This document shows, piece by piece, positions 41,224 to 59,143 of a DNA stretch of 64,000 bases (positions within the stretch are counted from its first letter, which is position 1; each line of letters opens with the position of its first letter). Source of the DNA: Planctomycetota bacterium (GTDB lineage: Bacteria; Planctomycetota; Phycisphaerae; UBA1845); assembly GCA_024278775.1 (NCBI GenBank), contig JAJRSP010000132.1, positions 1 through 64,000 on the forward strand, in the 5' to 3' direction. The notes under the pieces were generated by a model. That model saw only the letters and a program-made list of their open reading frames with translations. It was not told the origin of the DNA and ran no database searches. Both the position numbers and the translations under genes were made by a program.

Positions 41224-41242
41224 AAAGAAGGGAGAAGGAATC

Positions 41243-42031: not shown

Positions 42032-42123
42032 ACCTCACGAGGCGGTGGCGGCGTGCGTCCATCATCACCTGGGTTCGATAGCACCAACACGTGGCAACGA
42101 CCACGATAGCGAGGAGTGGCTCT

Positions 42124-43284
42124 GTGAGTACGCACAGGAAAACCAACATCTTATTTACCGGGTACGCCCCGGTTCATTTCGCGTGCTTTCGGCCGTTGTT
42201 TGAACAACTGTGCGCCATGCCCGACTTTGACGTACACGTCTCCGGCGGACTACGCACGAAGACAGACGACGGATATGTCTACGACCCGGATGGGATGTAC
42301 GGCTCCTTCGATGTACCCCACAACCGCATCATCCCAGAGCCTGAAATCCGAGAGCAATCGTTCGATGCCATCTTCGCCGCGAACACAAAGATGATCTTGC
42401 CGAAGAAGGTCGACACACGCGTTCAGATTTTCCACGGGATCTCCTTCCGAAACCGGGGCATCCGTGAAGAGAACATGAACTGCGATCACTACTTTCTTGC
42501 CGGCCCCTACATGAAACGGAAGTTCATCGAACGCGGGCTGATGGTCGACAACGACCCTCGGGCTCTGCCCATCGGGTTCATGAAAACCGACCGGCTGGTG
42601 AATGGCACTCTCGATCGTCACGAGTGTCTCCGTCGCTACGGGTTCGATGGTTCGCGCCCGGTGATTCTGTATGCACCCACCGGCGAAAAAGACAACTCCC
42701 TGGAAACCATGGGTGAGAACGTTCTTAGCCGACTACGCGACACGGACCAATATGACATTCTCGTCAAATTGCACGACCATCCCAAACGAAGCAAACCGAA
42801 TTGGTTCGAGCAGCTAGCACCACTGGAAGGGGATCACTTCAAGATCGCACGGGAGTTCGACATTATCCCCCTGCTCTTCGTGGCCGACCTGCTCATTTCG
42901 GATGCCTCATCGGTCTCAAGCGAATACTCACTGATGGATCGACCGATGATTTTTCTCGATGTACCCAAGCTCCTTCAGAGAACCAGGGCCAGAAAAAGTT
43001 CTACCGTAGACGTGGACACGTGGGGGCAGCGCGCCGGAGCGTTGGTCAAAAAAGCGGAGGACATCGAAGACGCCGTCGCCAACGAGTTGGCCCACCCCGA
43101 GCGACACGCCGCCATACGCCAGGAGATGAGCCGAGACCTCTTCTTCAACCCCGGTCATGCGGTGGATGCTGCCATTGCGTGGCTGTGCGAACGCTTCGGT
43201 GCGGGACCGGCCGCCGTATCACATCCTGCGTCGAATCCCGGACAGTGCGTCGCTCGCGCCGAGGCAAAGACCTCCCACGACTGA
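42124..43284 (+). CDS. CDP-glycerol glycerophosphotransferase-like protein
   Basis: 386 residues. The GTG at 42124 with GAGGAG 7 nt upstream was preferred to the GTG at 42091. Motifs match the TagB/TagF family: FTGYAPVHFACFRPLFEQL, VQIFHGISFRNRG, VILYAPTGEKDNS, VKLHDHPKRSKP and LLISDASSVSSEYSLMDRPMIFLD. The family polymerises or transfers glycerol- or ribitol-phosphate from CDP-polyols, as in teichoic acids. That chemistry is unusual in a didermic planctomycete-like cell, and the real acceptor is unknown. It forms an operon-like set with the ABC and nucleotidyltransferase genes. Confidence 0.85.
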   Translation: MSTHRKTNILFTGYAPVHFACFRPLFEQLCAMPDFDVHVSGGLRTKTDDGYVYDPDGMYGSFDVPHNRIIPEPEIREQSFDAIFAANTKMILPKKVDTRVQIFHGISFRNRGIREENMNCDHYFLAGPYMKRKFIERGLMVDNDPRALPIGFMKTDRLVNGTLDRHECLRRYGFDGSRPVILYAPTGEKDNSLETMGENVLSRLRDTDQYDILVKLHDHPKRSKPNWFEQLAPLEGDHFKIAREFDIIPLLFVADLLISDASSVSSEYSLMDRPMIFLDVPKLLQRTRARKSSTVDVDTWGQRAGALVKKAEDIEDAVANELAHPERHAAIRQEMSRDLFFNPGHAVDAAIAWLCERFGAGPAAVSHPASNPGQCVARAEAKTSHD

Positions 43285-43326: not shown

Positions 43327-43905
43327 TTAGGAGCCGGAGTGCGCAGCTTCCAGCTCATCCGCCATCCGCGTAAGTTCCTCCGCGTTCTTACCGCCGAAGC
43401 TCCGGCATCCGGCCTCACAAAACTGATCGCACAGGGTGGCCTGGTCTTGGTCGGACATAACACGATCACCCATCGGATAGAGGATGTTGTCCTCTTTGTA
43501 GATGTGCTGCCCGAGCAATTCAATGTACTGCTTTCCGGCGCGACAAACGACATTCGCCCCTTCGCTGTCTCCCGCGGCGTGTTGCTTCAAACCGTCGGCC
43601 ATCGCCTGTGTCAGCGCTCGAGCCATCTTATGTTCCTCCAGCATCACACCGATCGGTCCTTGATCGCGGGGAATACCGCACTTTTCGAGCGTCGGGAAGA
43701 GCAAATCCTCCTCCTTGGCGTGGTGGAACGCATCCGCAAAAAGCTGAAAGAACTGAACGCATGTCCCCATGGCATCGGCATCAAATTGACCCGACGACTC
43801 GGATTTATTGATCAGCCGCTCCAGCACCGCCGTCACACGCAGAATGATGCGATGTTCCGCCTTCAATACATCGGCCGGCATACCCTGGTCTGATGTCTCT
43901 GCCAT
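43327..43905 (-). CDS. Hemerythrin HHE-domain protein
   Basis: 192 residues with AAGGAG 8 nt before the ATG. The diiron ligands expected for the fold are seen in LKAEHRIIL (H18), FHHAKEEDLLFPTL (H61/H62, E65/E66), LEEHKMAR (H92) and LGQHIYKEDNILYPM (H134, E138). Such proteins bind O2 or sense/handle NO and iron. It lies 96 bp downstream of the last respiratory gene on the same strand, so a role in protecting or sensing for the respiratory complex is plausible. Confidence 0.9.
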   Translation of the reverse strand: MAETSDQGMPADVLKAEHRIILRVTAVLERLINKSESSGQFDADAMGTCVQFFQLFADAFHHAKEEDLLFPTLEKCGIPRDQGPIGVMLEEHKMARALTQAMADGLKQHAAGDSEGANVVCRAGKQYIELLGQHIYKEDNILYPMGDRVMSDQDQATLCDQFCEAGCRSFGGKNAEELTRMADELEAAHSGS

Positions 43906-44001
43906 TTCCGTATCTCCTTCGAACTCGAAACAGTTCGACCGTCATCCACAAACAACCGCAGCCACAACAACTCACGATACCACATGCACGCCGAAAGTCT
44001 A

Positions 44002-46092
44002 TCACATGGCCGAGGTACGCATTTCCATCGGCTGCTTCAACAGCCACAAGCTGAACACACTAAACGCGATCATCCCACACAACATCGGAAGCTGGCTTCG
44101 AAACGCCGCCTTGGGACTCCCAAACAAACGCAGCGAGGTCCGTTGGGCGACCCACAAGCTATACACATGCCCGACCAATACCAGAAACACCTGCACAAGC
44201 CAGAGTGTGCTCAACGAGATCATCGGCGGAATATCCCACTGCGCCGTGCCGAGCATATTCCACCCCCATCCAAACGGGTCTGAGATCATCGCCAGCACCT
44301 TAGGCCCCTCCATCAGAAGGTGCTCCATGTTGTGCGCAATGTGATAAAAAAGCGCAATCGGAAGCAACGCATACGCATAGCGAACGAAATAATCCTTGTA
44401 TGTCATCGATGATACGGCGTGGGCATCCCCGAGTCGCTTGGAGACACCGACAAGCGCGGCATACACGAGAATCGGCCCGGCCATCAACAGCGCCATACCC
44501 ACGCTAAACCCCACCACACGACCGACGCCACTGTGATTGCGGATCGCGTCGATAAACTGTTGCCATACCGGCGTCATCGTAAGCCCGTGAAACCCGGTGA
44601 TGGCCAGCATCAGCAGCGCCAGATAGGCCTCGTCGGCTTGCGGCTTGCCCTCGACGGCAAGATCACTTCCCCACGGCCTCAGGTTCACCGCGAGGTTATC
44701 TTCCGGGCACGCCTGCACACATTCCATACACTGAATGCAGTAGGTGTTCGTTTCGAGCTTGCCCGGATATAGAAACGTCGGACACCCGTAGGCCGTCTCA
44801 CTCCCGGTTACGCACGCCTTCCCTCGGCACGCCTTGCAAACCGCCGCGACCTTGGAGCGAACCTCCACACTGGCGAACATCGCGTATAGCCCGCTCACGC
44901 GCCCAACCAAACAGCCGTATCGGCAAAAACTTTTGCGATCAAACAGAAGGGCCGACACCACGGCCATCAACACCATCCCGATCGCCAGATAGGCGGTCAC
45001 GCGCGGACTCATCGTCACGCCGAAACCCAATTCGATCCATGTCAGCCCCACGAACATCACCGTGGCAATCACGATGTTTCGTACGATCCGTGGCCACTTC
45101 ATCTCCAAACTAAGACCGTCGCTGTTCTTTCGCCACAGGGCGAGCTTCTCCGTCCACCCGGCGATGGCGTCCCACGGACACACATAACACCATGCCTTGC
45201 CCGCAAACATGATCAAGATAATCAACGCCCCCCACCAGATCGTCCACGTCAGAATCGGCGCGATGTTGAGGGCGGGGTTCTGATTACCAAACAGCCCCGC
45301 AACCACAATCAGCACAAACAGAAGCGTGACTACCGCCTGCAGCGTAAAACGAAACCCACGCGACCGAAGCGCCCAGCGAACCCAAGCGAGAGTCAGAAGA
45401 TCAAATCGATCGGAACCGCCCGATGCGACACTGGACGGCAACGCCACCGGGGCATCCGAAACCGTCAGGATCGGGAGGGTCGTCGGCACCGCAAGTGCCG
45501 CTGCACCGACACCGGCACAACCCCGTATCCGTTCCCCCTCCCCCTTCATCTCAAAGGTCGCCATCCGGGGTGATGGAGCCGGCGTCTCCTCGGCGGCCTT
45601 CTGCCGACATACGGCCGCACGCCCCAGCCAATCGAAGATGCCGAAGCTCACAATCAGCACGAGCGCGATCGACGCGTAATAGAGCCAGCTCGGAATGCCC
45701 CACATCGAGTGCATGAAATAGGAGGCCGGATCCGACTTGAACATCGAACGATGCGCTTCACTACAGAGGTGATACGTCTTGCCGAGATAGGTGGCCGGAA
45801 ACCCGGCATCCTCCGTCATCGGCGCTTTGCACACCATGCAACGCGCCGAAACGTACGCATCCGGATTGGCAAGAAATTGCTCGCGGCAGCGCTGCGTGCA
45901 GAAGTGGTACGTCGTACCGGCGTGGTCAGCCTCAATGTCCCAGGAGGGGTTGACCTCCATCTGACACACGACGTCGACGAGGCGTCCGGATTCCGAGGAC
46001 GCCGTCCCGCCGGCGTTCGTAGCCATAACAACGGCCACGATCCCCGCCAGCATCATGTACGGGAACCAGAGTTTCACCCGGTCCTGCCTCAC
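44002..46092 (-). CDS. NapH-like polyferredoxin membrane protein with two YHS domains
   Basis: 696 residues, GTG start with AAGGGGG upstream. A signal or anchor is followed by two YHS/TRASH-type metal-binding modules (about residues 40-80 and 84-125: VVCQMEVNP...YHFCTQRC; CMVCKAPM...YHLCSEAHRSMF). A membrane domain then carries the NapH/CcoG-like Cys motifs AWCYVCPWDAIAGW, FCRYGCLVGR and CIQCMECVQACP, then more membrane segments. YHS modules bind Cu or Zn. It is adjacent to another NapH-like gene and probably moves electrons from quinol to periplasmic partners. Confidence 0.85.
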   Translation of the reverse strand: MRQDRVKLWFPYMMLAGIVAVVMATNAGGTASSESGRLVDVVCQMEVNPSWDIEADHAGTTYHFCTQRCREQFLANPDAYVSARCMVCKAPMTEDAGFPATYLGKTYHLCSEAHRSMFKSDPASYFMHSMWGIPSWLYYASIALVLIVSFGIFDWLGRAAVCRQKAAEETPAPSPRMATFEMKGEGERIRGCAGVGAAALAVPTTLPILTVSDAPVALPSSVASGGSDRFDLLTLAWVRWALRSRGFRFTLQAVVTLLFVLIVVAGLFGNQNPALNIAPILTWTIWWGALIILIMFAGKAWCYVCPWDAIAGWTEKLALWRKNSDGLSLEMKWPRIVRNIVIATVMFVGLTWIELGFGVTMSPRVTAYLAIGMVLMAVVSALLFDRKSFCRYGCLVGRVSGLYAMFASVEVRSKVAAVCKACRGKACVTGSETAYGCPTFLYPGKLETNTYCIQCMECVQACPEDNLAVNLRPWGSDLAVEGKPQADEAYLALLMLAITGFHGLTMTPVWQQFIDAIRNHSGVGRVVGFSVGMALLMAGPILVYAALVGVSKRLGDAHAVSSMTYKDYFVRYAYALLPIALFYHIAHNMEHLLMEGPKVLAMISDPFGWGWNMLGTAQWDIPPMISLSTLWLVQVFLVLVGHVYSLWVAQRTSLRLFGSPKAAFRSQLPMLCGMIAFSVFSLWLLKQPMEMRTSAM

Positions 46093-46101
46093 GCCACCCC
46101 C

Positions 46102-47652
46102 TTACCCTGCACCTGCTACCACGTCGGATGGTGTCGGTTCTGACAGGCTACGCCGCCGTCGCTCACGCTTCTTCTGAAACGCCCGAACCGCCACAAACAG
46201 CACGACCACCCCAACGGATACGGCAAGGACCATTGACCCCATGGCCGTGGGATGGCCCGCCACGATAAGAAACGGAATCACCTCAACACGTCCCTCGACC
46301 GGCATCGACAGCTCCACGATGTACTCACCGTCCTCCGGCATGGTGACATAGTACTTGTATTCATTGTCGAAGGGTGTGCGCGTCGTCGGGGGCATGATGA
46401 GGACGTTGTCGCCAAACGTGCTCGTCTGAAGCACGCGCACCGTAATAGTTTCCGTGTAGACGGTGTCGGTTTCCACGTTTTTGATATAAAGGGCTAGGTT
46501 GGCCGGTTCGCCGGGCACGGGAACGCCCGGATACGAGGTCAACAACACCTCATACGGTCCGGTCGTAGCGGGATACTCGAGTGTCGGACGCTGTGGATAG
46601 TTTTCCTTATACGAATAGTGCGGCAAACCGAGTATGTGATGCGCGCTCGCCGGGTCCACCGGCACCAGAACCAACGCCGCCGCCAAGACGAGCATGGCCG
46701 CGCGAGACACTGAACGCGACGGAGGCCGCGTCCGATTCTTCACACCCCGATGCGGGAGTCCGATCGTCAAGACCAGCGCGTGATCTCCACAGTGGCGTAA
46801 ACACACACCGCAGTTATCGCACTCGATCGACTCCGACTGCGGAATGGGATTGATACCGGCTTCGCACACGGGAATGCAATCACGACACCCGGTGCAGGCC
46901 CCTTCATTCAACTTGACACGCAACCATCGATACTTACCGAGTAACCCGTAGAGGGCACCACCCGGACACATCGTCCGGCACCACCATCGCGGCGATACAA
47001 ACACCTCCACGCCAATCATAACCAACAACAGCACCACCATCCCCGACAGCGCCGTCCCAAAAACCCACGCATGAAGCGTGCGGCTGATTACGGCAGGCGG
47101 ATAGATGATCGAAAAAAGAGGCGAGGACGTAGCCGCCGCCACAGCCAACCCCACGACAAGGAATATGTACTTGTTCGCGTGAGAAAACCTCACGGATGCC
47201 GGCTCGATCTCCGCAAACCGCAGAACCCGGCGAAGTTTGCCGGCCAACTCGAACAACACATAACCGGGGCAGATCCAACTACAAAAGACCTTTCCGAAAA
47301 CTATGGTCAGCACCACCGGAATGATGATCGACACGATCAGCGGCCTATGAACATGTCTGGACGCGGCGAGCATCTCCGCTGCCGCAAGCGGATCGGTCAC
47401 GTCAACACCCATCAGCCGGGCCGACCAAATCGTCCCCTTGTTCGCGTCCAAAAACGCCTCGGGGTTGTCGATGCCTTCGACGAAGGGACGAATCAGCCGG
47501 GTGGACACCTCTCCGCGCAAGCCCGCCATCAGTTGCGGATCGTCAATCGAACCGGCCGCCCGATAGTGCGCGTACAAACTGAGCAACGGCAACACCGCGG
47601 CCAACACGACCACCAGCATCTGCACCAACCTACGAAGAAGTTGCAGCTTCAT
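46102..47652 (-). CDS. NapH-like polyferredoxin with C-terminal periplasmic domain
   Basis: 516 residues. The N-terminal part has membrane segments plus FCSWICPGYVLFELAG, WWCRTMCPGGALYG, CTGCRDCIPVC and CDNCGVCLRHC, the NapH/NosR-type arrangement of Cys motifs and two [4Fe-4S] ferredoxin sites. Residues about 320-480 form a beta-rich domain beginning AHHILGLPHYSYKENYP, perhaps a copper-binding or YtkA/FixH-like domain, followed by a C-terminal membrane helix and basic tail. It overlaps no neighbour; 3 bp separate it from the NapG-like gene upstream and 9 bp from the next gene. Confidence 0.85.
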   Translation of the reverse strand: MKLQLLRRLVQMLVVVLAAVLPLLSLYAHYRAAGSIDDPQLMAGLRGEVSTRLIRPFVEGIDNPEAFLDANKGTIWSARLMGVDVTDPLAAAEMLAASRHVHRPLIVSIIIPVVLTIVFGKVFCSWICPGYVLFELAGKLRRVLRFAEIEPASVRFSHANKYIFLVVGLAVAAATSSPLFSIIYPPAVISRTLHAWVFGTALSGMVVLLLVMIGVEVFVSPRWWCRTMCPGGALYGLLGKYRWLRVKLNEGACTGCRDCIPVCEAGINPIPQSESIECDNCGVCLRHCGDHALVLTIGLPHRGVKNRTRPPSRSVSRAAMLVLAAALVLVPVDPASAHHILGLPHYSYKENYPQRPTLEYPATTGPYEVLLTSYPGVPVPGEPANLALYIKNVETDTVYTETITVRVLQTSTFGDNVLIMPPTTRTPFDNEYKYYVTMPEDGEYIVELSMPVEGRVEVIPFLIVAGHPTAMGSMVLAVSVGVVVLFVAVRAFQKKRERRRRSLSEPTPSDVVAGAG

Positions 47653-47655
47653 ACC

Positions 47656-48384
47656 CTACAACGCTCCACGACGCGTGTGCCGCGTTCGGACAACTCGGAT
47701 GGCCGGCTCACCCCGCACCACGGTTCGACAGATTTCCTCACACATGCCACAGCCCACACACCGTTCTGTATACACGATCGGTGCCAGGAACGCGCCCGGC
47801 TCGAGCTTGATCGCCTGATTCCGAAGCGGACAGAACATATAACACTCCCCACACGGACCGCGGCGCTCGTCTTCGGTCACCACTTGCGTCGGAGCGCGTC
47901 CCAAGTCCATCAGCAAACTCTGCTCGGCTCGTATTTTCTTAGCCTTGTACGAAAGGCAGAGGTCCGGCCGCAGTTCCACGGATCCCATGTCAGCGTCGGC
48001 CATCATCAACAAAGATTCGATCGCTCCCGTAGGACACGCCGGGCCACATTTCAAGCAAAGGGTGCAACCCTTAATAGAGGGATCGACATAGGGCGTGTGG
48101 GCAAGTTCCCCGTCTCGCTCCGTGTAGAATTGGATCGCACCCGGCTCGCAAGCGTCCTGACACCGGTAGCACCGAACACACGCTGAAAGAAAACCACGCT
48201 CGAATAACGAACCGGGCGGACGCAGCAGCCCTACGGTTGTTTTGTACGGCCGCGCCACGGCGGGATACCGTCTGCGCCGACCACGACTCAACCAATGGGT
48301 GAGGAGCACGGCACCGGCCATCCCCACGCTGGTCGCTGCCCCCCGAAGCACACGCCGCATCACTTCGCGCCGCGTCGGGCGCAT
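47656..48384 (-). CDS. NapG-like 4Fe-4S ferredoxin, Tat-type
   Basis: 242 residues. ATG at 48382-48384, one base overlapping the stop of the preceding gene (TGATG); an earlier frame start is less likely. The N-terminus has RRVLRGAATSVGMAGAVLL, a weak Tat-like signal. Four ferredoxin-type Cys clusters follow: CVRCYRCQDAC, CTLCLKCGPAC, CGECYMFC and CVGCGMCEEIC. NapG is the periplasmic partner of NapH in quinol oxidation for nitrate reductase. It sits between a paralogous ferredoxin gene and NapH-like genes. Confidence 0.88.
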   Translation of the reverse strand: MRPTRREVMRRVLRGAATSVGMAGAVLLTHWLSRGRRRRYPAVARPYKTTVGLLRPPGSLFERGFLSACVRCYRCQDACEPGAIQFYTERDGELAHTPYVDPSIKGCTLCLKCGPACPTGAIESLLMMADADMGSVELRPDLCLSYKAKKIRAEQSLLMDLGRAPTQVVTEDERRGPCGECYMFCPLRNQAIKLEPGAFLAPIVYTERCVGCGMCEEICRTVVRGEPAIRVVRTRHTRRGAL

Positions 48385-48992
48385 CACGCGCGCCTCACGC
48401 GCACCCGAACCGCTTGCGGATACCGGATGCACGAGCGCTCGCAGCAACCACATCCCACGCACGCCCCGGGGTGAATCGTCGGACGTTCCCAGAGGCCGAT
48501 CGTCATCGCCTCACCGGCCAGGGGGCACGCCCGAAAGCACGCGCCGCAGCTCCAGTTGTTGTATGAATAACAAAGATCAAAATCGATCTCGGCAACACCG
48601 ATCCGAACCTTGGCTTTGATGTCCTCCCGAACCTTGCGCACCAACTGCAGCGCACCGGACGGACACACTTCCGTACACTTAAGGTGATCGCCCTCGACGT
48701 TCGCACACAGCATGCAAGCGGCCGTGCGCGGATGCATCGTCGGCGTACCGCTGACGTGATCCCCCGCCGTCAACGGCAGCGACTCCAAGGCCCGGTTGGG
48801 GCAGGCGTCCACACACTTCAAACAGCGGATACAGGTTGATGCAAACTCGGATTCGTCCAATGCCCCCGGCGGTCGCAACGGCCCCGCAGACGCCACCGCA
48901 GCGGCACCACCCAACCCCGTGACCAGTGCTCCCCCTCCCACCGCCACACCGATCGTCGCTGATTGTTTGATGAAATCGCGCCGATCAAGCAA
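48384..48992 (-). CDS. Tat-exported 4Fe-4S ferredoxin (NapG-like)
   Basis: 202 residues starting at TTG 48990-48992, which lies 7 nt after GAGGAGG and directly begins LLDRRDFIKQSATIGVAVGGG, a good Tat signal (RRDFIK). A longer reading from 49052 would put 20 residues before the twin-arginine. Ferredoxin clusters are CIRCLKCVDAC, CMLC...CTEVC, CGACFRAC and CVGCGCCERSC. It is a paralogue of the following NapG-like protein, so the locus has two. Confidence 0.88.
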   Translation of the reverse strand: MLDRRDFIKQSATIGVAVGGGALVTGLGGAAAVASAGPLRPPGALDESEFASTCIRCLKCVDACPNRALESLPLTAGDHVSGTPTMHPRTAACMLCANVEGDHLKCTEVCPSGALQLVRKVREDIKAKVRIGVAEIDFDLCYSYNNWSCGACFRACPLAGEAMTIGLWERPTIHPGACVGCGCCERSCIRYPQAVRVRVRRA

Positions 48993-49171
48993 TGACGATC
49001 CTCCTCGAAACCACAGGCACCAAGGCGCAAACCGGAACGAGCCGGATGGCACAAACCTTCAATGATCTTCTCAATCGAGCCATCGCTGAACTACCAACTC
49101 GGGGGATTACCGACAACCCCACTGTTATTCGACTCCACTTTCAGATAGCGGCCATTCGTCCCGCATGACAA

Positions 49172-51973
49172 TCACAAAAGCTCAATACGTGCGGCCAGCT
49201 TTTTATAGTCACACTGCCCGCTCACCGGGTCCCACGCACGGTGACTCGTCGAATTGACGAGCCACTTGTTCTTGCGCGGATCGGCGCTGTCCGCCACCGA
49301 CAGGTTCCACGGACTGAACAAGTAACCCGGTGGTACTTCGGTACGTGCCGGACGAATCATACTCTGGAGTCCGGCGGACACGCGCGCCTCATATGATCCC
49401 CGCCGCGTGACCAGACGCACGCGCTGACCATCTCGTAGCCCGTACCGCTTCGCGTCTTCCTCACTCACCTCGACATATTGTTCCGGCACAAGCTTGATCG
49501 TGGTGGCACCGCGAATCGTCTTCGCGGTATGAAAATGCTCGTATACCACACCAAGCCCAAGCCAGAAGGGATAGACATCGGCCGCCTTATGGTCCTTCAG
49601 CAGCTTCGACTCGTCACGATAGACCTCCAGATGCGGAAGCTCCGGGACCAACCCGGCATTACGCGCCTCAACAAGAATCTTGGGCTTACCCTTGTTGGGT
49701 CCGTCCTTGTGTAGATCATCAATGAGGAACGGTCCCTGACCCGGCTTGTTCTTATCGCCATATTTCGAAAGCCGTGACGTGATGTCCTCCAGCTTCGAAT
49801 AGTCCTGCTCGCAAAGCTTAAACCGTGCCTTGCCGTCTTTGTGTCGGAAGGCTCCATACGGCTTCCCGGCCCACCCCTCCTGGCCGAGATAGCGGCGCGG
49901 TGTGCCGCCCGCCCTGGCCACTTTCGCCGTGGGTGCCGGCCACTGAATACCTCTCAGTGCGCGAAGCTGATCGTAGGGTGACGTGCCGTCCTCTTTTTCC
50001 ACTTCGAGAATACCGCTGAGGTCCGCGTCCGACCCGGGGCTAGCGGCAACAATATCTCGGAACACCTCCTCCGGGTCATACGCCATGATGCCGTTACCCA
50101 TTTTGATCTTCTTCTTGTACGGAAAGATTTTGTCGGCGTCGAGCCCGAGTTTCTTGGCGAGAGACTTACCCTTATCAATGGCCATATCCATATCCGGTCG
50201 GCAGTTGGGCGGCGGGTTCTTCGTTCCGTCGCAGATATAGATTCGGCGTTCCGATTGAATGTAAGTGCCTCCGGTCCACTCGCCCCAGGTCGCCGCCGGG
50301 AAGATCACATCGCCATACAGGAGGTTCGGCGCGTGGCGGTAAATATCCTGAACCACGCAAAACATCTTGGTTAGCGCCGGACGCACCAACGTATCCAGAT
50401 CGGGCATGTGAACGTGCGTCGTGTACATCCAGAACATGGCATCAAGCCCACCCTTGAGAGCTCGCTCCATCATTCCGATTACCATACCCGGATTCGGCAA
50501 GGCCGATGTCTGCGCCAGACGCTCACGCGGCACGCGCCATGCATCAGCGATGTGATCACGCCACGCCGCATTCTTAAGCGGCATGTTGAACGGCAAACGA
50601 CCGGTCAAGCCCCCCATCAAACGCTCGCTCATGGCGTTGGGCTGTCCGGTTTGTGAGTGGCTTCCACAACCCGGACGCCCGACATTGCCCGTCAGCAGGT
50701 GCAGGTTGATGATGCTGATCGTGTTAAACTGGCCGTGCAACATCTGGTTGTAACCGATGCCCCAAAAACTCAACACACCGCCGCGACCACGCTGGCGACC
50801 CTTGATCGAGGCCTCAGCCCACGTACGCGCGACGTTTTCAATCAGCTCGACCGTGACACGACCGTTGTCGATCTTCCTCAACCGCTCGACAGTCTGCTCG
50901 GGAGAATACTGCGCAAGTACGCCCTCTCGGTACGCCTTCCAGTTGTTGGTGTTCTTCTCCAACCACGACTCGGGCATACACGCTTGCGGGTACCGCTTCA
51001 TCAACACATGGGCGATCGCATTGAGATAGCTGATGTCCCCGTTGAGCGTAGGGATATGCAAGCTGTTTCGCGGATTGATGTCTTCAAGCCCCGTAACGGT
51101 CCCCGTTTTTCGTGGGTCTGCGACGCACGTCGGGATATCATGCTTGGCCTTGTGATCCGCTACCCGCCAGAACAAAATCGGATGCGCCTCACGCGCGTTG
51201 TGACCCCAGAACGTAATAAAATCCGCTTCTTCGATATCCTCGTAGCTCGTCGGCGGTGCGTCCGACCCGTACGAATGAAAATAACCGGTGACGGCCGAGG
51301 TCATACACATTCGCGCATTGGCCTCGATCGAGTTACTCCCGATCACACCCTTCATGAGCAGGTTCTCGATCCATTGCGCCTCCATCGTAAGCTGCCCCGA
51401 TCCATCGAGACCCACGGCATTCGGACCCTTGGCCTTGATGATTTCGGCGATACGATCGGCCACCAACTCCTCGGCCTCTTCATACGAAACTTCGCGGAAC
51501 ACATCCGCATCAAACCGGCCTTTGGTGCTCGACACGTGACCGCGTAACGGATCACTCATGTCCCTACGAACCAGTACCTTGGTCAAACGATCACGATAAA
51601 TCGGCTCATGCGCGTTGAGCCCCTTGATACACTGAATACCCCGGTTGGTCGGATGCTTCTTATCCGGCACCATACCTACCACCTTACCGCCCTCGGTCTT
51701 GATGAGGGTACCACAACCGACGCCACAATAAGGGCATGCCGCCTGCAGCAACTTAATCCCCGTACCGTTCGACGCACCAGGTAACGGCGCAGCTTTTGCC
51801 TCGATGAATTCCTCCGGCAACATCCCCGTAGCCGCCACAGCGACTCCAGTCCCCGCAGCCATCTGCATAAAAGCACGACGGTCGAACGGCTTGTCGTATT
51901 TGACCTTGCGGTGAATCGTACAGGGAACCTGCTCAACTCCGTCGTCGAGCACCGTCAGTTTGTTATCACTCAT
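49172..51973 (-). CDS. NapA-type periplasmic molybdopterin oxidoreductase
   Basis: 933 residues. The N-terminus has a Tat-like motif FDRRAFMQMAAGTGVAVAA. An N-terminal [4Fe-4S] cluster (CPYCGVGCGTL; Cys 80, 83, 87, 115) precedes the bis-MGD domains. The putative Mo-ligand Cys223 is in ARMCMTSAVTGYF, and WGHNAREAHPILFWRV and FWLGLGVVYEHFHT near the C-terminus match periplasmic nitrate reductase NapA. No NapB, NapC, NapD or NapF is seen in the window, so nitrate as substrate is not certain; another oxyanion is possible. AGGAG lies 8 nt before the ATG. It is 4 bp downstream of the decaheme cytochrome gene. Confidence 0.9.
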   Translation of the reverse strand: MSDNKLTVLDDGVEQVPCTIHRKVKYDKPFDRRAFMQMAAGTGVAVAATGMLPEEFIEAKAAPLPGASNGTGIKLLQAACPYCGVGCGTLIKTEGGKVVGMVPDKKHPTNRGIQCIKGLNAHEPIYRDRLTKVLVRRDMSDPLRGHVSSTKGRFDADVFREVSYEEAEELVADRIAEIIKAKGPNAVGLDGSGQLTMEAQWIENLLMKGVIGSNSIEANARMCMTSAVTGYFHSYGSDAPPTSYEDIEEADFITFWGHNAREAHPILFWRVADHKAKHDIPTCVADPRKTGTVTGLEDINPRNSLHIPTLNGDISYLNAIAHVLMKRYPQACMPESWLEKNTNNWKAYREGVLAQYSPEQTVERLRKIDNGRVTVELIENVARTWAEASIKGRQRGRGGVLSFWGIGYNQMLHGQFNTISIINLHLLTGNVGRPGCGSHSQTGQPNAMSERLMGGLTGRLPFNMPLKNAAWRDHIADAWRVPRERLAQTSALPNPGMVIGMMERALKGGLDAMFWMYTTHVHMPDLDTLVRPALTKMFCVVQDIYRHAPNLLYGDVIFPAATWGEWTGGTYIQSERRIYICDGTKNPPPNCRPDMDMAIDKGKSLAKKLGLDADKIFPYKKKIKMGNGIMAYDPEEVFRDIVAASPGSDADLSGILEVEKEDGTSPYDQLRALRGIQWPAPTAKVARAGGTPRRYLGQEGWAGKPYGAFRHKDGKARFKLCEQDYSKLEDITSRLSKYGDKNKPGQGPFLIDDLHKDGPNKGKPKILVEARNAGLVPELPHLEVYRDESKLLKDHKAADVYPFWLGLGVVYEHFHTAKTIRGATTIKLVPEQYVEVSEEDAKRYGLRDGQRVRLVTRRGSYEARVSAGLQSMIRPARTEVPPGYLFSPWNLSVADSADPRKNKWLVNSTSHRAWDPVSGQCDYKKLAARIELL

Positions 51974-51976
51974 CGC

Positions 51977-54973
51977 TTACTCTCCTAGAGGCGGAACCCA
52001 CGCAGCCATCGGTTCCGAGTTGCCTGCACGTTTCGAATCAAACCCTGATAGACCCTTTGCGGAGACCGTCCTCGCCGCCCCGATACGCTCGATTTGAGTC
52101 ACCCGCTCGGACGACATGGGCGCATCAAGCGACCGCTCGGCCGGCAACGTCATGGGTGACGGTGCCAGCGTGGACCAATGTCTGATGTAGGCCACAATAT
52201 CGTCAACATCTTCCGAGGAAAGCGCCCCCAAGCCATTCGACCCACGCCCGAAGGCGCGCATCGCCGTACCCCGCCGTCCCCGCACGATCGTAGCCTGCAA
52301 AAACCCATCAGTGGCGGAAGCCAGGAACCCTTCGTTATTCAACTCCGGAGCCCACAAACCCTTCCCCTCTTCGCCGTGGCAGCCGGAGCAGTTCGACAGG
52401 TACAGTTCGTGGCCGCGTCCAAGATCCCACGGCACCACAAAACGATGCGGCACGTCAGCCACCGCACCCGGCAACTCAGGCGGCGCGTACTCCCACGATC
52501 TCAGGAACGCCACGAGATCGTTCACCTCATCGCTTGACAGACCTAGGATGGATTGCGGTCCGCGCTTCACCGGACGCATCTCCGTGCCACGCCGCCCCAA
52601 CGCCATCGTCGCCATGAGGAATCCGTCCGACGCAAAACGCAGGAAGTTCGCGTTAGCCAGTGCCGGACCGCTCGCCCCCTCACCATACACACCGTGACAA
52701 CCCGAGCAATTGGCGGCGTAGATATGCACGCCGGTCTCCGGTCGACCATGTGGCGATTTGGCCACCCGGGCGATCTCGTTTTCACCGGCCCGCTCCAGAT
52801 AACGAAGGTAAGCCACCACATCGTCAATGTGCCGCTCGGAAAGTTCTCCGATGCCCTGTCCGCCCTTGCGGAAACCGCGCATCTCGGTCCCTTCTTTGCC
52901 GTTCGTGATCCACTCTCGAAGCATCACGTCGCTTGCGTTGGCCAAAAAGACGGGGTTGTTAAGCTGCGGACCCGAAGCCCCCTCGCCATCCACTCCGTGG
53001 CAACCGCTACAGTGACCGGTAAAAATACGCCGACCGGTATCCCAGTCGCCGCGCGGCACCACCTGAGCGTGCCACTCGGCATCGTGACTGGGCTCGGTCT
53101 GCCAGGTCCGAACATACTTGATGAGCGACGCCACGTCGTCGTTGGAAAGGTGCCGCCAACTCGGCATCCCCGTACCTGGACGCCCTTGGATCATCGTCTC
53201 CGCGAGGTAGACATCAGAGACAGCCGTCAAGAACGCCTGCGTCCGAAGCGAAGGGGCCAGATCGCCGGACCCATCCAGCCCGTGACACATCACGCAATTC
53301 GCCTTGTAGAGCACCCTGCCGATACGAACAGAGGCTCGCGCCGAATCTTCCTGCGATACCGTGGCCACGACCGAAGGCACGTCGCTCCGCACGGTCTGCC
53401 ACTGGCGCAGGTACGCAAGAAGATCACTCACTTCCTGCGCGTCAAAACCACGCCACGCCGGCATCGCCGTATTGGGTCGGCCGTAGACAATTGTATCACG
53501 CAAAAAAGCGTCAGAGGCGACGGCAAGAAATGTCGGAGAGTTCAGAGTGACCCCGATGCCACCTTGGCCCGCAGCCCCATGGCACCCCGCACAATTTGAA
53601 CGATACAATGCGCCACCGACCCGGACGTCGCCACGCGCCGAAGATACCGCCGCCATATCCGGGGGTGGCTCCTGCCAACTCCGCAAATACTGAACGAGTA
53701 GCGTAATTTCATCGCCACTCAAACCGCCCTCTTCGGCCCATGCGAGCATCTTCGTGCCCGGTCGTCCGTACGTCACTACCCGCCGCAGGTAATCATCGCT
53801 TGCCACGGCCAACGTATCGCCAAGATTCAGCGAAGGCGTCAGCACCTCCATGTCGCTACGCTGTTCGATCACAATGTTTCGAGCGTCCCAAGACCGCCCC
53901 CACGGATCAGCGTCCGACTGCCACAACCCCTGACGCATGGTCGAACCGTAACCGTCCGGCCCATGACACGCCGAACAGTACATCTTGTAGAGCGTTTCTC
54001 CCCGAACCGGAACCCGAGAGGAGGCGAGTGCGGCCGGTTCCGGCATATGGCTCGCTGGCGCGTCCTTGCGATGAAACGCCCCCATGTACAGCGCCAAATC
54101 GCGTGCCTGATCGTCGGTCAGCCCCATATCCGGCATCACCGTAGTCGGAGACACACGACGGGGGTACTTGAAGTGCTCAAATAACCACTGCTCCACGGTG
54201 TGCTCACCCTCGATGTGGGTAAAATCAAAATCGTGCCTTGTTTTGTCCCCAACGTACGTGAGGTCCGGTCCCAGGGTCCCGCCGCGGCCGCGGTACTGGT
54301 GGCAACCCAAGCAGCCGGATTGCACGACGAGTTTCTTCGCGGCAGCCAGACGATCGGCACCGGGAAGCGATGCCGACAGAACCCCTTCATCGATCATGGG
54401 CTTCGCCGAAGCCCCATCCCCCTCTTCATTACGAGCGAAGAGGTCTTCCGCTCCGCCGTACAAATCCAGCTCATCGTGACATCGCCCGCAACTCGTATAC
54501 ACCGCATCCCCCCGCAGCATCGGTGAGTCCATGAACGGCACAGGAGCGCCATCGGGTCGCCAGCCATGCGCAAAATCCTTAACCGTGGCCTGACCCTGAC
54601 CCTGGTGGCAGATGGTACAACCAAACTTATCCGGCGGATGGAAACGCAACAGGTCACCCGAATGCCGACGGATCGGCTGCGGAACCTCGGCCATGGCGGG
54701 GTTTTCTACGCCCAAGTGACACGTCGTACATCGATCGACCCTGGCCAACTCCGGCAGGTAAATCTGCTTGTGCTCCACGCGAAACGCCTTGGCCGCCTGC
54801 CGCGCAAGTTCACCGTCGGCCGTCTCCAGCAACAGCACCTGATAGTCCGCTTGCGCATCGCGCCAGGCCCCACTGAAGTTTTCTTCAGACGCGGACAGCG
54901 CCAACACGCCAAGCGATACGATCGAACTCACCAACAGCACGACCTTCATGGCTTTGACTTGTCGATGATCCAT
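51977..54973 (-). CDS. Decaheme cytochrome c with six tandem class-I modules
   Basis: 998 residues. A signal or anchor (VVLLVSSIVSLGVLALS) precedes ten CXXCH sites: CTTCH 92, CTICH 119, CGRCH 162, CLGCH 221, CSACH 333, CAGCH 461, CVMCH 560, CSGCH 655, CSGCH 756, CSGCH 862. The last six are each followed by a copy of G(R/K)xGTxM or GRPNTAM, the Met axial-ligand loop, at about 95-130-residue spacing, so they are six repeated monoheme cytochrome c modules. Mature protein is probably periplasmic. It is between cytochrome b and the NapA-type gene and is the likely electron carrier linking them. Confidence 0.93.
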   Translation of the reverse strand: MDHRQVKAMKVVLLVSSIVSLGVLALSASEENFSGAWRDAQADYQVLLLETADGELARQAAKAFRVEHKQIYLPELARVDRCTTCHLGVENPAMAEVPQPIRRHSGDLLRFHPPDKFGCTICHQGQGQATVKDFAHGWRPDGAPVPFMDSPMLRGDAVYTSCGRCHDELDLYGGAEDLFARNEEGDGASAKPMIDEGVLSASLPGADRLAAAKKLVVQSGCLGCHQYRGRGGTLGPDLTYVGDKTRHDFDFTHIEGEHTVEQWLFEHFKYPRRVSPTTVMPDMGLTDDQARDLALYMGAFHRKDAPASHMPEPAALASSRVPVRGETLYKMYCSACHGPDGYGSTMRQGLWQSDADPWGRSWDARNIVIEQRSDMEVLTPSLNLGDTLAVASDDYLRRVVTYGRPGTKMLAWAEEGGLSGDEITLLVQYLRSWQEPPPDMAAVSSARGDVRVGGALYRSNCAGCHGAAGQGGIGVTLNSPTFLAVASDAFLRDTIVYGRPNTAMPAWRGFDAQEVSDLLAYLRQWQTVRSDVPSVVATVSQEDSARASVRIGRVLYKANCVMCHGLDGSGDLAPSLRTQAFLTAVSDVYLAETMIQGRPGTGMPSWRHLSNDDVASLIKYVRTWQTEPSHDAEWHAQVVPRGDWDTGRRIFTGHCSGCHGVDGEGASGPQLNNPVFLANASDVMLREWITNGKEGTEMRGFRKGGQGIGELSERHIDDVVAYLRYLERAGENEIARVAKSPHGRPETGVHIYAANCSGCHGVYGEGASGPALANANFLRFASDGFLMATMALGRRGTEMRPVKRGPQSILGLSSDEVNDLVAFLRSWEYAPPELPGAVADVPHRFVVPWDLGRGHELYLSNCSGCHGEEGKGLWAPELNNEGFLASATDGFLQATIVRGRRGTAMRAFGRGSNGLGALSSEDVDDIVAYIRHWSTLAPSPMTLPAERSLDAPMSSERVTQIERIGAARTVSAKGLSGFDSKRAGNSEPMAAWVPPLGE

Positions 54974-55012
54974 GTCATCTCCCGAAAACGCGTCCCGAAC
55001 CTCGCAGCCTCA

Positions 55013-55054
55013 CCCAGACCAACCCGATGCCCAGACCAACCCGATGCCCAGACC
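55013..55054. repeat. 17-bp tandem repeat, 2.5 copies
   Basis: CCCAGACCAACCCGATG occurs at 55013-55029 and 55030-55046, with a partial third copy at 55047-55054, in the gap between the cytochrome b and decaheme genes. It is probably slippage; it sits in the ribosome-entry side of the decaheme gene and might affect it only slightly. Confidence 0.85.
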
Positions 55055-55057
55055 GGC

Positions 55058-56674
55058 TTAGTGCACAGGCCAATCCGCCGACGACCAATAGAAGGCCCAG
55101 TTGGGTCCGCGGAGGAACGTGGCGAAGTACGTCAAGATCACGAAACCCACCAGGAAACAGGTAAAGAGCGCGATAGCTCCCATCCGTGTCGAATTCGTCG
55201 CCTTCATGGCCACGAAAGACCAGAGCGCAAAACACGCCACGAATACCGTGCCCGGATTGAACAACGTAATCACAATCTGCGGCACGTCGGCCGTCGCCTC
55301 CCAGTTGCGGAGCCAACCGTGCGCCACTGTGAACCAGAGCATCCCGACCACCACGAGTACCGCAAAAACAGCCGACAACATGGCCGTACGCCGCCCCTGT
55401 CGCCCGCTGAACCAAATGCCACAGTCTTCCTTTTCTCTATCAAGATACGGCACCAATCCCAGACCCAGCACCACAATCGCGGGAATCCCCACGCCACCCA
55501 TGAATGCCGAATAGGAAACCAACTCCTGCAATCCGAGGAAATACCAGGGGGCTTTGGCCGGATTCTCCGGAACCGCCGGGTTGGCCATTTCTGTCAGAGG
55601 CGCGTCAACCCACATACCAATCACCAGAGTGAGCAGCACGGTGACCATGCTGACGGCACCAATGACGTACATCACGTTGGGCCAGGTTGTGATCGTGTTA
55701 CGCAGCTCACGATTCACCGCAGGCGTCCGCCCCTTCATAAGCCCCATAAGCCCGTAGGTCTTGAGCGGCAATGTGTCGGATAGGACAACGTCTCCCCCCG
55801 CTTCGCCATCCGACTTCGGGAGTTCGTCGGCGGAACGCGGCCTCACCAACCCACCGTCCTTACGAATCCGCCAGAAGTGAACCGCAATCATCGCGGTAAT
55901 CACAATGGGCAGGACCATGACATGAAGCACGTAAAACCGCGTTAACGCCTCCTGACCCACATAGTGAGCCCCAAGCAACAACTCTTTTTGCAACCCACCC
56001 ACGTCGAACCACTGCGTCATGCCCAACGCATCTGTGAGTTCCCGAGGCGACTGAGCAATGTTGGATCCAATCGTAATCGCCCAGTACGCCAACTGATCCC
56101 ACGGCAGCAGGTAGCCCGTAAAACTGAGTGCGAGGGTCAGCACGAACAACCCCATACCGATCACCCAGTTGAATCGCCGTGGACCTTTATATGCGGAGGT
56201 GTAGAACGCGCGCGCCATGTGAAGCATCACACTCGCCACCATGGCATGTGCCGCCCAACGATGCACGTTTCGAATCAGTCGCCCGGTCGGCACCACATAA
56301 ATAATATCCAGCATCGACGCGTAGGCCTGATCTACCGCCGGCTTGTAATACACCATCAAGAGAATCCCTGTGAAGCAGAGCAAGACAAACAGCACCAGCG
56401 TCGCGTAGCCCAGCCCCAGTGTCGTCAACGCCTTGATGGAGTGAACATGTGTCCGCACCGGAAGAACATGCAAGAAGAAATTGGTGAAAATAGCTTGTGA
56501 CTTGGCCCGGTCCGACGTGGGCTTTCCATGCCGGACCACCGATGCCGTAAACGCCCTCGGAGTCGATAGCAAATTCGCCGCAAACGCACGCACGGCACCG
56601 CGATCACCCATGCTACGCTCGCCGGTCTCGCCGCGCTTTCCTGACGACGCAGAATCGCGTTTCACGTCGGACAT
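55058..56674 (-). CDS. Cytochrome b, fused b/IV type with extra C-terminal helices
   Basis: 538 residues from ATG 56672-56674 with GGAG upstream. Two bis-His pairs are seen: RWAAHAMVASVMLH and FYVLHVMVLPIVITAMIAVH. SFTGYLLPWDQLAYWA is the Qi/heme loop. The Qo PEWY motif reads APWYFLGLQEL, a variant seen in menaquinol-type complexes. After YLDREKEDCGIWFSG there are extra membrane segments ending RGPNWAFYWSSADWPVH. It oxidises quinol and passes electrons to the Rieske protein and cytochrome c. Confidence 0.94.
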   Translation of the reverse strand: MSDVKRDSASSGKRGETGERSMGDRGAVRAFAANLLSTPRAFTASVVRHGKPTSDRAKSQAIFTNFFLHVLPVRTHVHSIKALTTLGLGYATLVLFVLLCFTGILLMVYYKPAVDQAYASMLDIIYVVPTGRLIRNVHRWAAHAMVASVMLHMARAFYTSAYKGPRRFNWVIGMGLFVLTLALSFTGYLLPWDQLAYWAITIGSNIAQSPRELTDALGMTQWFDVGGLQKELLLGAHYVGQEALTRFYVLHVMVLPIVITAMIAVHFWRIRKDGGLVRPRSADELPKSDGEAGGDVVLSDTLPLKTYGLMGLMKGRTPAVNRELRNTITTWPNVMYVIGAVSMVTVLLTLVIGMWVDAPLTEMANPAVPENPAKAPWYFLGLQELVSYSAFMGGVGIPAIVVLGLGLVPYLDREKEDCGIWFSGRQGRRTAMLSAVFAVLVVVGMLWFTVAHGWLRNWEATADVPQIVITLFNPGTVFVACFALWSFVAMKATNSTRMGAIALFTCFLVGFVILTYFATFLRGPNWAFYWSSADWPVH

Positions 56675-56724
56675 GATCTCACTCCAACTCGCCCAGCGCG
56701 GCCCCATAAGGGCACCACGACAGG

Positions 56725-57219
56725 CTACACACTCAACACGGTCCCTTGTTCCACTTCCTTCAATGTTTCCGCCACGAGCGAACCTTCCGGTGAGACCTGA
56801 AGCTCCACCCACACCAACCCCTTGGGAGCCGGTCCACCGGTCAGCTTCCCCATCGCATCAAACGAAGACCCGTGGCAAGGACACAAAAACGCTCCATCGG
56901 GACCCCGCTCTGCGACACATCCCAGGTGCGTACAGACCGCCGAAATTGCGTAGAATCCTTCCGCGGTTCGGTAAAGCCACAAACGCTGCGCGGGAAAATA
57001 CGTCGATGCACCGACCTGAAACCGGTCGGGCTTGCCGAGCTTTACACGAGAATTCGACTCTGGAAATACGGAGGGCATCGGTAGCCGAAGCGAACCCAGC
57101 ATCGCCATGACAAACGCCAGAATCGCAGACCATCCGGCCGCCAACCCAAGAAAGTCACGGCGAGCCGGTGGCGTTTGGAACCGCTTGCTCATCTCCGGCC
57201 GGCTGTGATCCACTGCCAT
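56725..57219 (-). CDS. Rieske iron-sulfur protein
   Basis: 164 residues from ATG 57217-57219 (GAGGG 7 nt upstream). The N-terminus has a Tat-type motif [12 protein letters not shown] and a membrane anchor ([12 protein letters not shown]). The Rieske cluster ligands are CTHLGC and CPCHGSSF. It ends with [15 protein letters not shown]. It is the high-potential carrier of the bc-type complex and lies next to cytochrome b (55058-56674). Confidence 0.95.
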
Positions 57220-57232
57220 AACAAAACCCTCA

Positions 57233-59143
57233 TCAACTGGGAACGGCGGTCGGCACCAGGGTTGCCGTAAAACCGAATCGTTCCATCGTAATCGCATCCA
57301 CCGGACACCGCTCGGCGCACAGCGCGCAACGGATACATTTCGCCTCATCCTTCACGATCGCCGACATCTCCGCCAGCTCAGCCGCCCCGTAGCGCTCTTG
57401 CAGTGCCAGACCGAGTTCATCCCCGCCCACCAAACGATCACACGAGACAAGCTGCAGGCACAGCTCCGGACACACATCCGCACACCCACCGCACAAAATA
57501 CACTTCTCGGAATCGAAGATCGTGTTCACCCCACAATCCAAGCATCGACACGCCTCGGTCACGGCCTGCGACTCCGTAAAACCACATTCCACCACCGCCG
57601 CCTGGCTTAGCTTTCGCGTTTCGGCGCTCATGGTGTCGGGAACTTGGCGGGGAAGTTTTTCGTAGTCCGGTTCACGACCGTAGTCAGGTATGTTGAGATG
57701 AACAAACTCATACGAAGGCACCAGCGGCTTACCCTGCAAGAAGGCATCCACCGAGAGCGCACATTTCTTGCCGCTCGCCACCGCGTCAATCAGCAAACGC
57801 GGACCGTACGCAATATCGCCCGCGAGAAAAACATCCGGTGCATCAGTACGCAAGGACTCCTGGTCGCATGTCAGCAGACCGCGTCCATCGACGGAGAGGT
57901 CTGTTGCAGGCTCCACGAAGCTCAAATCAGCCTGCTGCCCGATCGCCCACAGCACGGTGTCCGCCTCGATCGTCGTCAGGTCGGCCTCATCAAATGTTGG
58001 CGCAAACTTCCCGGAGTCATCAAAAACGCTCAGACAACGTTTGAACGTCACGCCGGTCAGCTTGCTGGACGCATCACGCACAATCTCCACGGGACCGAGC
58101 GAGGCGTGCAACACCACACCTTCCTCATGCCCTTCGAGAATCTCCAGATCGTCGGCTGGCATCTCCTCGACACTTTCCAAACAACAGAGGTGAACCTCGC
58201 CGCCTTCAGATTGCCGCAACACGCTGCGCGATACGTCGTAACCGATCTGCCGAACCAAAGTCCGCGACACATCATACGCAACATTACCCCCACCGATCAC
58301 AACCGTCTTACGCCCGAGCCGGGATAGCGTCGAGCCGGACGAACGATCTTTCAACGCAACGTCACGCAGGAACTCCACACCACCGATCACGCCCGGACCC
58401 TCACCACCGGGAATGGGGATGGCACGAGACTTCTTGGCCCCCACAGCCACGATCGTCGCAGCGTAATCACGGCGAATGTCCGTAAAGAGAATATCTTTGC
58501 CCACCTCGGTATTGTAGATGAACTCCACTCCCAACGCCCGAATCACTTCGACCTCTGCCTCGATCAAGGCGCGCGGGAGGCGGTACTCCGGAATACCAAA
58601 CGCCAGCATGCCCGCCGGCACCGGCTCCATCTCGAAAATGGTCGGGCGATACCCCAGCAGCGCAAGATCATGCGCGGCGGCTAAGCCGGCCGGTCCGGAA
58701 CCGATAATCGCCACCTTAGCGCCGTCGGCCGCACCATCACCCGGCTCACCAGGCATCGCCCCCAGCTCATTTCGATCGAAACAATCCCGTCGCGACCGGC
58801 CGGCCAAAACACGTTTCATAAAAGAGATGGGCTGGAGCGTCTCGCTCGTAAATGACTCCGGACCGTGTCGCTCGGCGACGAAACGCTTCAGGGCACGGAT
58901 GGAGACGGCCTCGTCGACATCACCCCGGCGACAAGCAGCCTCGCAGGGTGCCCCGCACACACGACCACAAATACTTGCCAGCGGGTTGGGCCCCCGCGCG
59001 ATCAGATAAGCCGAAGCGAAATCCCCCCGAGCGACGGCCCGGACATAACCCCGCGCGTCCGTGTTGACCGGACACGCATACTGGCATTTGATCTGCCTTC
59101 GCCAGTAGGTTTCGTCTGGAATCTCTACCGATACCGAATCCAC
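57233..59143 (-). CDS. GltD-like FAD/NAD(P) oxidoreductase with ferredoxin domains
   Basis: 636 residues, GTG start. The N-terminal Cys-rich domain [15 protein letters not shown] and [16 protein letters not shown] matches GltD-type [4Fe-4S] domains. An FAD site [22 protein letters not shown] and a second dinucleotide site [14 protein letters not shown] follow, and the C-terminal part carries two ferredoxin clusters [11 protein letters not shown] and [11 protein letters not shown]. No signal peptide is seen, so it is probably cytoplasmic. In the bc-type operons of some Planctomycetota, subunits of this kind are thought to link NAD(P)H to the complex, but the direction is unknown. It opens the operon. 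Confidence 0.9.

Follow-up and report, generated by a model that had tools for sequence, protein, structure and literature searches.

To our knowledge, a Rieske/cytochrome b complex that makes NAD(P)H has been proposed only from the slow-growing anammox bacteria. In Kuenenia, the operons Kustd1480-1485 and Kuste4569-4574 each join a Rieske protein, a b6-type cytochrome b, a subunit-IV part, a GltD-like flavoprotein and a multiheme cytochrome c, and NAD(P)H formation has been argued for both complexes (PMC12954380). Rieske/cytochrome b genes are also linked to periplasmic nitrate reductase (Nap): the nap cluster of Caldithrix abyssi combines them with NapGH and has no NapB or NapC (PMC5317091), and the Nap respiration of Campylobacter is coupled to Qcr (PMC6195509). 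Here we describe an operon in which a Kuenenia-like Rieske/cytochrome b/GltD module stands next to a Nap-like reductase. It lies in a stretch of 64,000 nucleotides (contig JAJRSP010000132.1 of assembly GCA_024278775.1, from a Planctomycetota bacterium), called the window below. Each part of the operon has a precedent in Kuenenia, Caldithrix or Campylobacter. The combination, its conservation and the separate clade of its reductase were not found described, nor was the operon itself, in a literature search that had most subscription papers outside its reach.

The operon consists of ten genes on the minus strand, running from 59143 to 43327 (Table 1), with intergenic gaps of -79 to 119 nt if Rieske and cytochrome b are taken to begin at their likely downstream start sites. 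Pfam and NCBIfam give a GltD/NfnB-like flavoprotein with ferredoxin domains, a Rieske protein, a cytochrome b, a multi-cytochrome c and a molybdopterin oxidoreductase, then two NapG-like ferredoxins and two NapH-like proteins, the second of which also has a YHS domain, and last a hemerythrin. Domains and open reading frames (ORFs) thereby agree with the original prediction, made from the letters alone, of nine co-linear respiratory genes and a hemerythrin, among them Rieske/cytochrome b, a decaheme cytochrome and GltD. Its two NapGH sets hold in content; their order is G-G-H-(YHS)H, and the NapG and NapH matches, like that of NapA, all score under their NCBIfam cut-offs. NapB, NapC and NapD, which it had called missing, are encoded nowhere in the operon, and tblastn of the window with the E. 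coli proteins found nothing credible for NapB or NapC (best E 0.58 and 0.075) and nothing at E 1 for NapD.

Table 1. The ten genes of the operon, in order of transcription
Feature	Position	Strand	Basis
GltD/NfnB-like FAD/NAD(P) flavoprotein, N- and C-terminal [4Fe-4S] ferredoxin domains, 636 aa	57233..59143	-	Pfam Pyr_redox_2, Fer4_20, Fer4
Rieske [2Fe-2S] protein; start likely 57216	56725..57348	-	Pfam Rieske; PDB 9rk4, 9rk3 best
Cytochrome b6 fused to subunit-IV-like part; start likely 56674	55058..56812	-	Pfam, alignments
Membrane-anchored decaheme cytochrome c	51977..54973	-	ten CxxCH, N-terminal transmembrane helix
Nap-like Mo/[4Fe-4S] oxidoreductase, twin-arginine signal	49172..51973	-	own clade, sister to NapA
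NapG-like ferredoxin 1, twin-arginine motif (read from sequence)	48384..49052	-	NapG 129.8 bits, cut-off 269
NapG-like ferredoxin 2, twin-arginine motif (read from sequence)	47656..48462	-	NapG 86.1 bits, cut-off 269
NapH-like membrane polyferredoxin with C-terminal beta-sandwich	46102..47652	-	NapH 133.5 bits, cut-off 234
YHS domain and second NapH-like membrane polyferredoxin	44002..46092	-	Pfam, NCBIfam
Hemerythrin-domain protein, accessory	43327..43905	-	Pfam Hemerythrin

Sequence comparison shows the Rieske/cytochrome b/GltD module to be a homologue of the two Kuenenia complexes. Among solved structures, the window Rieske protein is closest to 9rk4 (Kuste4569) and 9rk3 (Kustd1480), whose Rieske potentials are +303 and +335 mV (PMC12954380); the Ser/Phe tuning pair of Kustd1480 is present in the window protein and in 8/8 operon rows listed. 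The GltD-like flavoprotein is homologous to subunits of anammox complexes, and its best PDB matches are 8oh5 and 9bov/9bp5, the last called NfnABC in PMC12954380. Hydropathy gives it no transmembrane helix, and it is presumably cytoplasmic.

The original prediction had suggested comparing gene order in anammox and other planctomycetes. To guess anammox genomes we used a hydrazine synthase domain, which matched 57 of 294 sampled Planctomycetota genomes and is clearly wider than anammox; ten putative anammox genomes were then chosen by hydrazine synthase frames of 809-826 aa, and cytochrome b and GltD homologues were present in all ten. Genome G113, which we take to be Kuenenia or a near relative, has two loci carrying Rieske, cytochrome b, GltD, subunit IV and multiheme c genes. 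The two have the gene contents given for the Kuenenia operons, and the Rieske proteins they encode align with 9rk3 and 9rk4 from end to end. Identity between the window and G113 is 47% for cytochrome b and 34-36% for GltD. Unlike the operon, the two Kuenenia-type loci, each read over 18 kb, hold neither a Nap-like reductase nor NapH.

Residue comparisons, for which a length filter admitted 40/45 cytochrome b and 35/38 GltD ORFs, extend the likeness. The window cytochrome b, numbered from the start at 56812, has heme His pairs 184/198 and 297/312, an extra His115 and the PAKAPWYFLGLQE motif; the PAKAPWY motif, the extra-heme His and the neighbouring Arg and Lys are shared with the Kuenenia complexes. 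His115 aligns with Kuste4571 His43 and Kustd1481 His62, on one or other of which an extra heme b is modelled (PMC12954380). This His is retained in 40/40 operon proteins, as are Arg317 and Lys318, its neighbours in the anammox comparison, and GltD Arg612, equivalent to Kustd1483 Arg550, is retained in 35/35. The operon differs from Kuenenia in the fusion of b6 and subunit IV, and in a decaheme in place of an octa- or hexaheme cytochrome c. In the column that we take, from b6, to be that of the heme c_n Cys, both anammox proteins have Cys and the operon proteins have none (Gly in 38 and Ala in two of the 40). The NAD(P) loop, YRR in the anammox proteins, is acidic (LE) in 33/35 operon GltD proteins, the other two having RT or YRR. 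An acidic loop indicates NAD+, and its presence suggests that these flavoproteins may use NAD+ rather than NADP. The anammox link between Rieske/cytochrome b and NAD(P) had not been seen in the original prediction; this link shifts the likely role of GltD from an input to a possible output.

The reductase is Nap-like without being canonical NapA, and its earlier label, NapA-type, needs correcting. Its NCBIfam NAPA score is 292.6 bits (cut-off 930.55). In a maximum-likelihood tree of 50 proteins, a quick one in which the program warned that some long branches meet, the operon enzymes form a single clade of 32 rows outside the NapA clade, with a Shimodaira-Hasegawa-like approximate likelihood ratio test (SH-aLRT) support of 100. 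The sister group comprises eight NapA and one other sequence (SH-aLRT 89), and the stem of the operon clade is long, at 2.8 changes per column. In the numbering of the D. desulfuricans enzyme, taken from the alignment, the equivalents of Cys140 (the Mo ligand), Met141, Lys49, Gln111, Gln346, Arg354 and Asp155 are retained in 32/32 clade members, as are the [4Fe-4S] Cys of NapA. The AlphaFold2 (AF2) model, with a mean predicted local distance difference test (pLDDT) of 71.9 and stretches below 50 around the active site, has Nap proteins as all eight of its top PDB matches (2jio, E 3.7e-39). With canonical Nap the reductase shares its fold, export by the twin-arginine route, the [4Fe-4S] and Mo-Cys motifs, the core residues of the pocket and the NapG/NapH neighbours; it departs from Nap in its separate clade, an altered pocket, extra segments of at least 8 aa and the lack of NapB, NapC and NapD. 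Formate dehydrogenase was considered and ruled out: the clade has Cys-Met and TGQPNA rather than Fdh-type motifs, and groups with NapA apart from four Fdh sequences. Source names of clade members are mixed (molybdopterin oxidoreductase, selenocysteine-containing dehydrogenase, hypothetical protein and, once, ferredoxin-nitrate reductase). Identity to the window reductase is 74-88% in the best 120 of 2232 protein-set matches, the window's own entry excepted. Ten of the 294 Planctomycetota genomes hold a clade member, at 59-84% identity, and the next Planctomycetota matches among those listed reach at most 39% over part of the reductase.

We then analysed 73 loci from a profile search of species genomes with the molybdoenzyme, mapping the window proteins onto them. 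Seven partner genes were scored, the second NapG and the hemerythrin being outside the scoring. Among loci with room or presence, we observed cytochrome c in 56/65, cytochrome b in 45/56, Rieske in 41/53, GltD in 40/49, NapG1 in 63/64, NapH1 in 60/61 and YHS-NapH in 48/51. All seven partners occur in 29 of the 38 loci with room, and all 29 have the order and strand of the window; this gene order is conserved beyond chance. The synteny thus reaches other planctomycetes and several further phyla: loci with GltD, Rieske and cytochrome b come from Planctomycetota, Wallbacteria, Deltaproteobacteria, Binatota, Gemmatimonadales, Hydrogenedentota, Sumerlaeota and Verrucomicrobia, by names taken from the records of metagenome-assembled genomes (MAGs), where single assignments may be wrong. 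One MAG locus has nine of the ten operon genes, the hemerythrin being the exception, and its reductase is 100% identical over 910 aa to a protein (P0043) that one source assigns to the cultured species Deferrisoma camini. Reductase distances correlate with those of cytochrome b, GltD, cytochrome c and YHS-NapH (r 0.62-0.93 in 25 loci; 0/2000 permutations as high), a pattern that kinship of the genomes would also yield.

As a whole, the explanation that we favour, at slightly less than an even chance, is that quinol electrons are split between the Nap-like enzyme and NAD+. We infer one physical membrane complex, which would oxidise quinol at the Rieske/cytochrome b core. The first electron would pass from the Rieske protein through the decaheme to the periplasmic Nap-like reductase, most likely reducing nitrate to nitrite, and the second would run from the b hemes, probably by way of the extra heme at His115, to the iron-sulphur clusters, the cytoplasmic flavoprotein and finally NAD+. 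NapG and NapH would give quinol electrons another way to the reductase, one without bifurcation, or would aid its maturation. The sequences themselves give the gene set, its conserved order, the reductase clade, the heme and iron-sulphur motifs, the export signals and the homology to Kuenenia; the joining of the parts in one complex, the direction in which electrons flow, the substrate and the product NAD+ are our interpretation. These parts differ in strength. A quinol-to-reductase chain with oxidation at the Rieske/cytochrome b core is very likely; this route over the decaheme, the direct quinol-to-NapA chain originally proposed, is the best-supported part of the original interpretation, though the name NapA needs correcting. 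Nitrate is probably the main substrate of the reductase, as its likeness to Nap suggests. Net reduction of NAD+ by the low-potential branch has nearly, but not quite, an even chance, and we are more doubtful of the full form of the idea, a supercomplex that bifurcates quinol electrons and reduces both NAD+ and nitrate (or another oxyanion), the high-potential electron being spent so that the low-potential one makes NADH. With potentials of -70 mV for menaquinol and -320 mV for NAD+ (PMC12954380) and +420 mV for nitrate (PMC6195509), our own arithmetic gives 490 mV downhill from menaquinol to nitrate versus 250 mV uphill from menaquinol to NAD+, the first step being the larger. Without the heme c_n site, the NAD+ route would be favoured over a Q cycle.

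All 40 loci that have Rieske and enough room encode GltD, and GltD never occurs where Rieske is lacking. This pairing counts against plain quinol-to-Nap respiration, in which Rieske/cytochrome b would run a normal Q cycle, the decaheme would feed the reductase, and GltD would be an NADH input to cytochrome b or the quinone pool. The loss in 40/40 proteins of the heme c_n Cys, which belongs to the quinone-reducing side, speaks in the same direction, an objection softened by the fact that bc1 complexes function without this Cys. NADH input has further been judged energetically wasteful for Kuenenia (PMC12954380). Plain respiration gains from the Rieske/cytochrome b genes in the Caldithrix nap cluster (PMC5317091), from the coupling to Qcr in Campylobacter (PMC6195509), from related Rieske/cytochrome b complexes that lack GltD, and from the loci, described below, where an ActB-type complex replaces the Rieske/cytochrome b module. 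We regard it as a serious but rather doubtful alternative. The Caldithrix cluster is likened to the operon by description, with NapA sequences uncompared; it has a tetraheme NapM and an octaheme nitrite reductase, and the available part of PMC5317091 mentions no GltD-like protein.

The observations that weigh against a split between nitrate and NAD+, in whole or in part, are gathered in this and the next two paragraphs. The NAD(P)H role of the Kuenenia complexes is itself only a proposal. Of the two flavoprotein Arg residues compared, Kuste4570 Arg511, also named in PMC12954380, is Gly in 35/35 operon proteins. We also examined, as a control, 30 cytochrome b loci from 18 genomes, three of them operon members. 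Grouped by eye, the 11 rows that belong to the subfamily of the operon have the extra His in its sequence context, and 0/19 canonical rows do; three canonical rows show a His at that gappy position in a different context. A tree of cytochrome b unites the operon rows (SH-aLRT 100) and makes the loci L207 and L208 their sister (95); the rows from anammox and those lacking GltD fall into a group of their own (84). The surroundings of five further subfamily loci, L204 to L208, were compared. At L204, L205 and L206, GltD was not found within 15-16 kb, though the extra His is present. These three loci make the His a weaker indicator of coupling to NAD, and it is therefore a subfamily trait and no proof of a route to NAD+. 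L204, L205 and L206 encode Rieske/cytochrome b complexes with multiheme c, and a COX1 gene follows L205. L207 (4790-9881) and L208 (5883-11016) are reductase-free clusters of GltD, Rieske, cytochrome b and hexaheme cytochrome genes, whose host genomes also hold the operon.

The reductase also occurs with other electron supplies. Cytochrome c is missing in nine loci scored for it, six of them from Elusimicrobia by the names of their records. An ActB-type gene follows YHS-NapH in 7/73 loci, joined by an NrfD/ActC-type gene in five and with a hexaheme cytochrome between in three; the Act names come from domains, with one member of each gene cluster checked by Pfam. Rieske/cytochrome b genes are absent from six of these seven loci, the seventh (L050) being without upstream sequence to judge, and the surroundings of some include Rrf2 regulators, Mo-cofactor genes and an Alginate_exp porin. 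Alternative complex III (ActABC), which they resemble, is not encoded in the window. The early branches L172 and L173 are minimal (type C), with only a 2-3-heme cytochrome, the reductase, NapG and NapH-like proteins; the alignment of their second NapH begins at residue 229, and the YHS part is absent. In type B and type C loci the reductase is found without GltD. The reductase occurs with three kinds of electron supply; the quinol-to-reductase chain is therefore supported, and NAD coupling is optional for the reductase, not needed.

Among 26 host genomes chosen from the longer loci, a general nitrite partner was not found, as judged by NrfA and NirK, other nitrite reductases not being searched. 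NirK passes its cut-off in none, and NrfA gives a long match in three; nine hosts exceed the Pfam threshold for NrfA, six of them through short pieces. NapA passes its cut-off in 3/26 hosts, G023 having split matches just under it that group with NapA, and NarG in 0/26, which leaves 23/26 hosts in which neither NapA nor NarG passes as a further respiratory enzyme, in a search that did not extend to assimilatory Nas. The host of locus L033 has an unusually high number of NarG-like molybdoenzyme matches, 34, all under the NarG cut-off. A review names Arg354, Asp155, Glu156 and Asp355 as channel residues (PMC13223375). In the operon clade Glu156 is replaced by Ala or Thr, and the position after Arg354 (Asp355), Glu in 12/12 Nap/Nas references, is Leu in 31 and Ile in one of the 32 members; Met308 is Ile in all 32. 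The changed D/E355 and Met308 may point to another substrate.

The original prediction had offered, as a second option, a variant for another oxyanion. Because the pocket acid is changed in 32/32 clade members, we keep as a candidate, though an unlikely one, a reductase that acts on another oxyanion or an N-oxide (e.g. chlorate, selenate or nitrite) instead of nitrate. The separate clade with its long stem and the NAPA score far under the cut-off are consistent with it, as is the listing of Deferrisoma camini among iron reducers (PMC9629499). The retention in every member of Mo-Cys and the six other pocket residues listed above, and the position of the clade as sister to NapA, argue for nitrate, as do an Rrf2-type regulator cluster in 19/73 loci and a hybrid cluster protein cluster in 3/73 (one member of each checked by Pfam). 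The hybrid cluster protein gene lies ahead of cytochrome b in L021, L022 and L067, and in the first two between Rieske and cytochrome b.

The decaheme cytochrome bears on a third alternative. The window protein has 998 aa and exactly ten CxxCH, arranged as three N-terminal hemes and seven further ones in mostly single-heme modules. Ten CxxCH are found in 47/47 homologous ORFs above 850 aa, the window's included, a count that omits 8/55 cluster members that are shorter or cut. The gene ends 3 nt ahead of the reductase gene, and matched cytochrome c and reductase distances give the highest correlation, r 0.93. These features, and the resemblance of the decaheme to the multiheme partner of the anammox Rieske/cytochrome b complex, are hard to fit to a redox-balancing or detoxifying system, in which NapG/NapH would supply the reductase and Rieske/cytochrome b-GltD would be a separate complex merely sharing the operon. 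Such a system would suit the minimal type C loci, and a heme-copper oxidase family match in 26/26 hosts (one a fragment) makes oxygen respiration possible; we nevertheless consider it improbable.

Returning to the remaining genes, a conserved C-terminal beta-sandwich (AHHILGLPHYSY...) occupies residues about 338-465 of the first NapH-like protein. Its best structural match is the copper protein CrdA (Foldseek 9ll2, E 4.1e-4; AF2 model of the NapH-like protein with mean pLDDT 74.5), and together with the YHS domain it hints at a metal role, perhaps with copper. The CrdA-like domain is a separate gene in some loci. A third NapG-like ferredoxin is frequent in relatives between YHS-NapH and hemerythrin, where the window has only 96 nt (43906-44001). 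Hemerythrin homologues occur in 9/73 loci besides the window, many loci being short, and in one of them ahead of cytochrome c. A parallel to the NapG/NapH genes beside Rieske/cytochrome b is the clade II nitrous oxide reductase module, with NosGH and Rieske/cytochrome b; Pfam and NCBIfam find no NosZ among the ten operon proteins.

The flanks (59782-61370 and 41120-43284) encode seemingly unrelated proteins: RpiB, a Sua5-phosphatase fusion, a nucleotidyltransferase and a glycerophosphotransferase. Because GC content is flat along the whole window (0.57-0.62), composition gives no sign of recent foreign origin for the operon. A promoter scan was uninformative, with 0 sites versus 6.4 in shuffles.

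If quinol electrons are indeed split as we propose, the operon would be a second, differently wired version of a Rieske/cytochrome b-NAD system, outside anammox, in which nitrate-like respiration may help to drive NADH formation. Deferrisoma camini, with its identical reductase and nine of the ten genes in the corresponding MAG, makes the idea testable in pure culture. Since members of the Nap-like clade, which has no name of its own, carry mixed source names, nitrate respiration in Planctomycetota and other phyla may be undercounted. In the full bifurcating form of the idea, the anammox-type scheme would be a modular device present in several phyla, its oxidant set by whichever reductase is plugged in.

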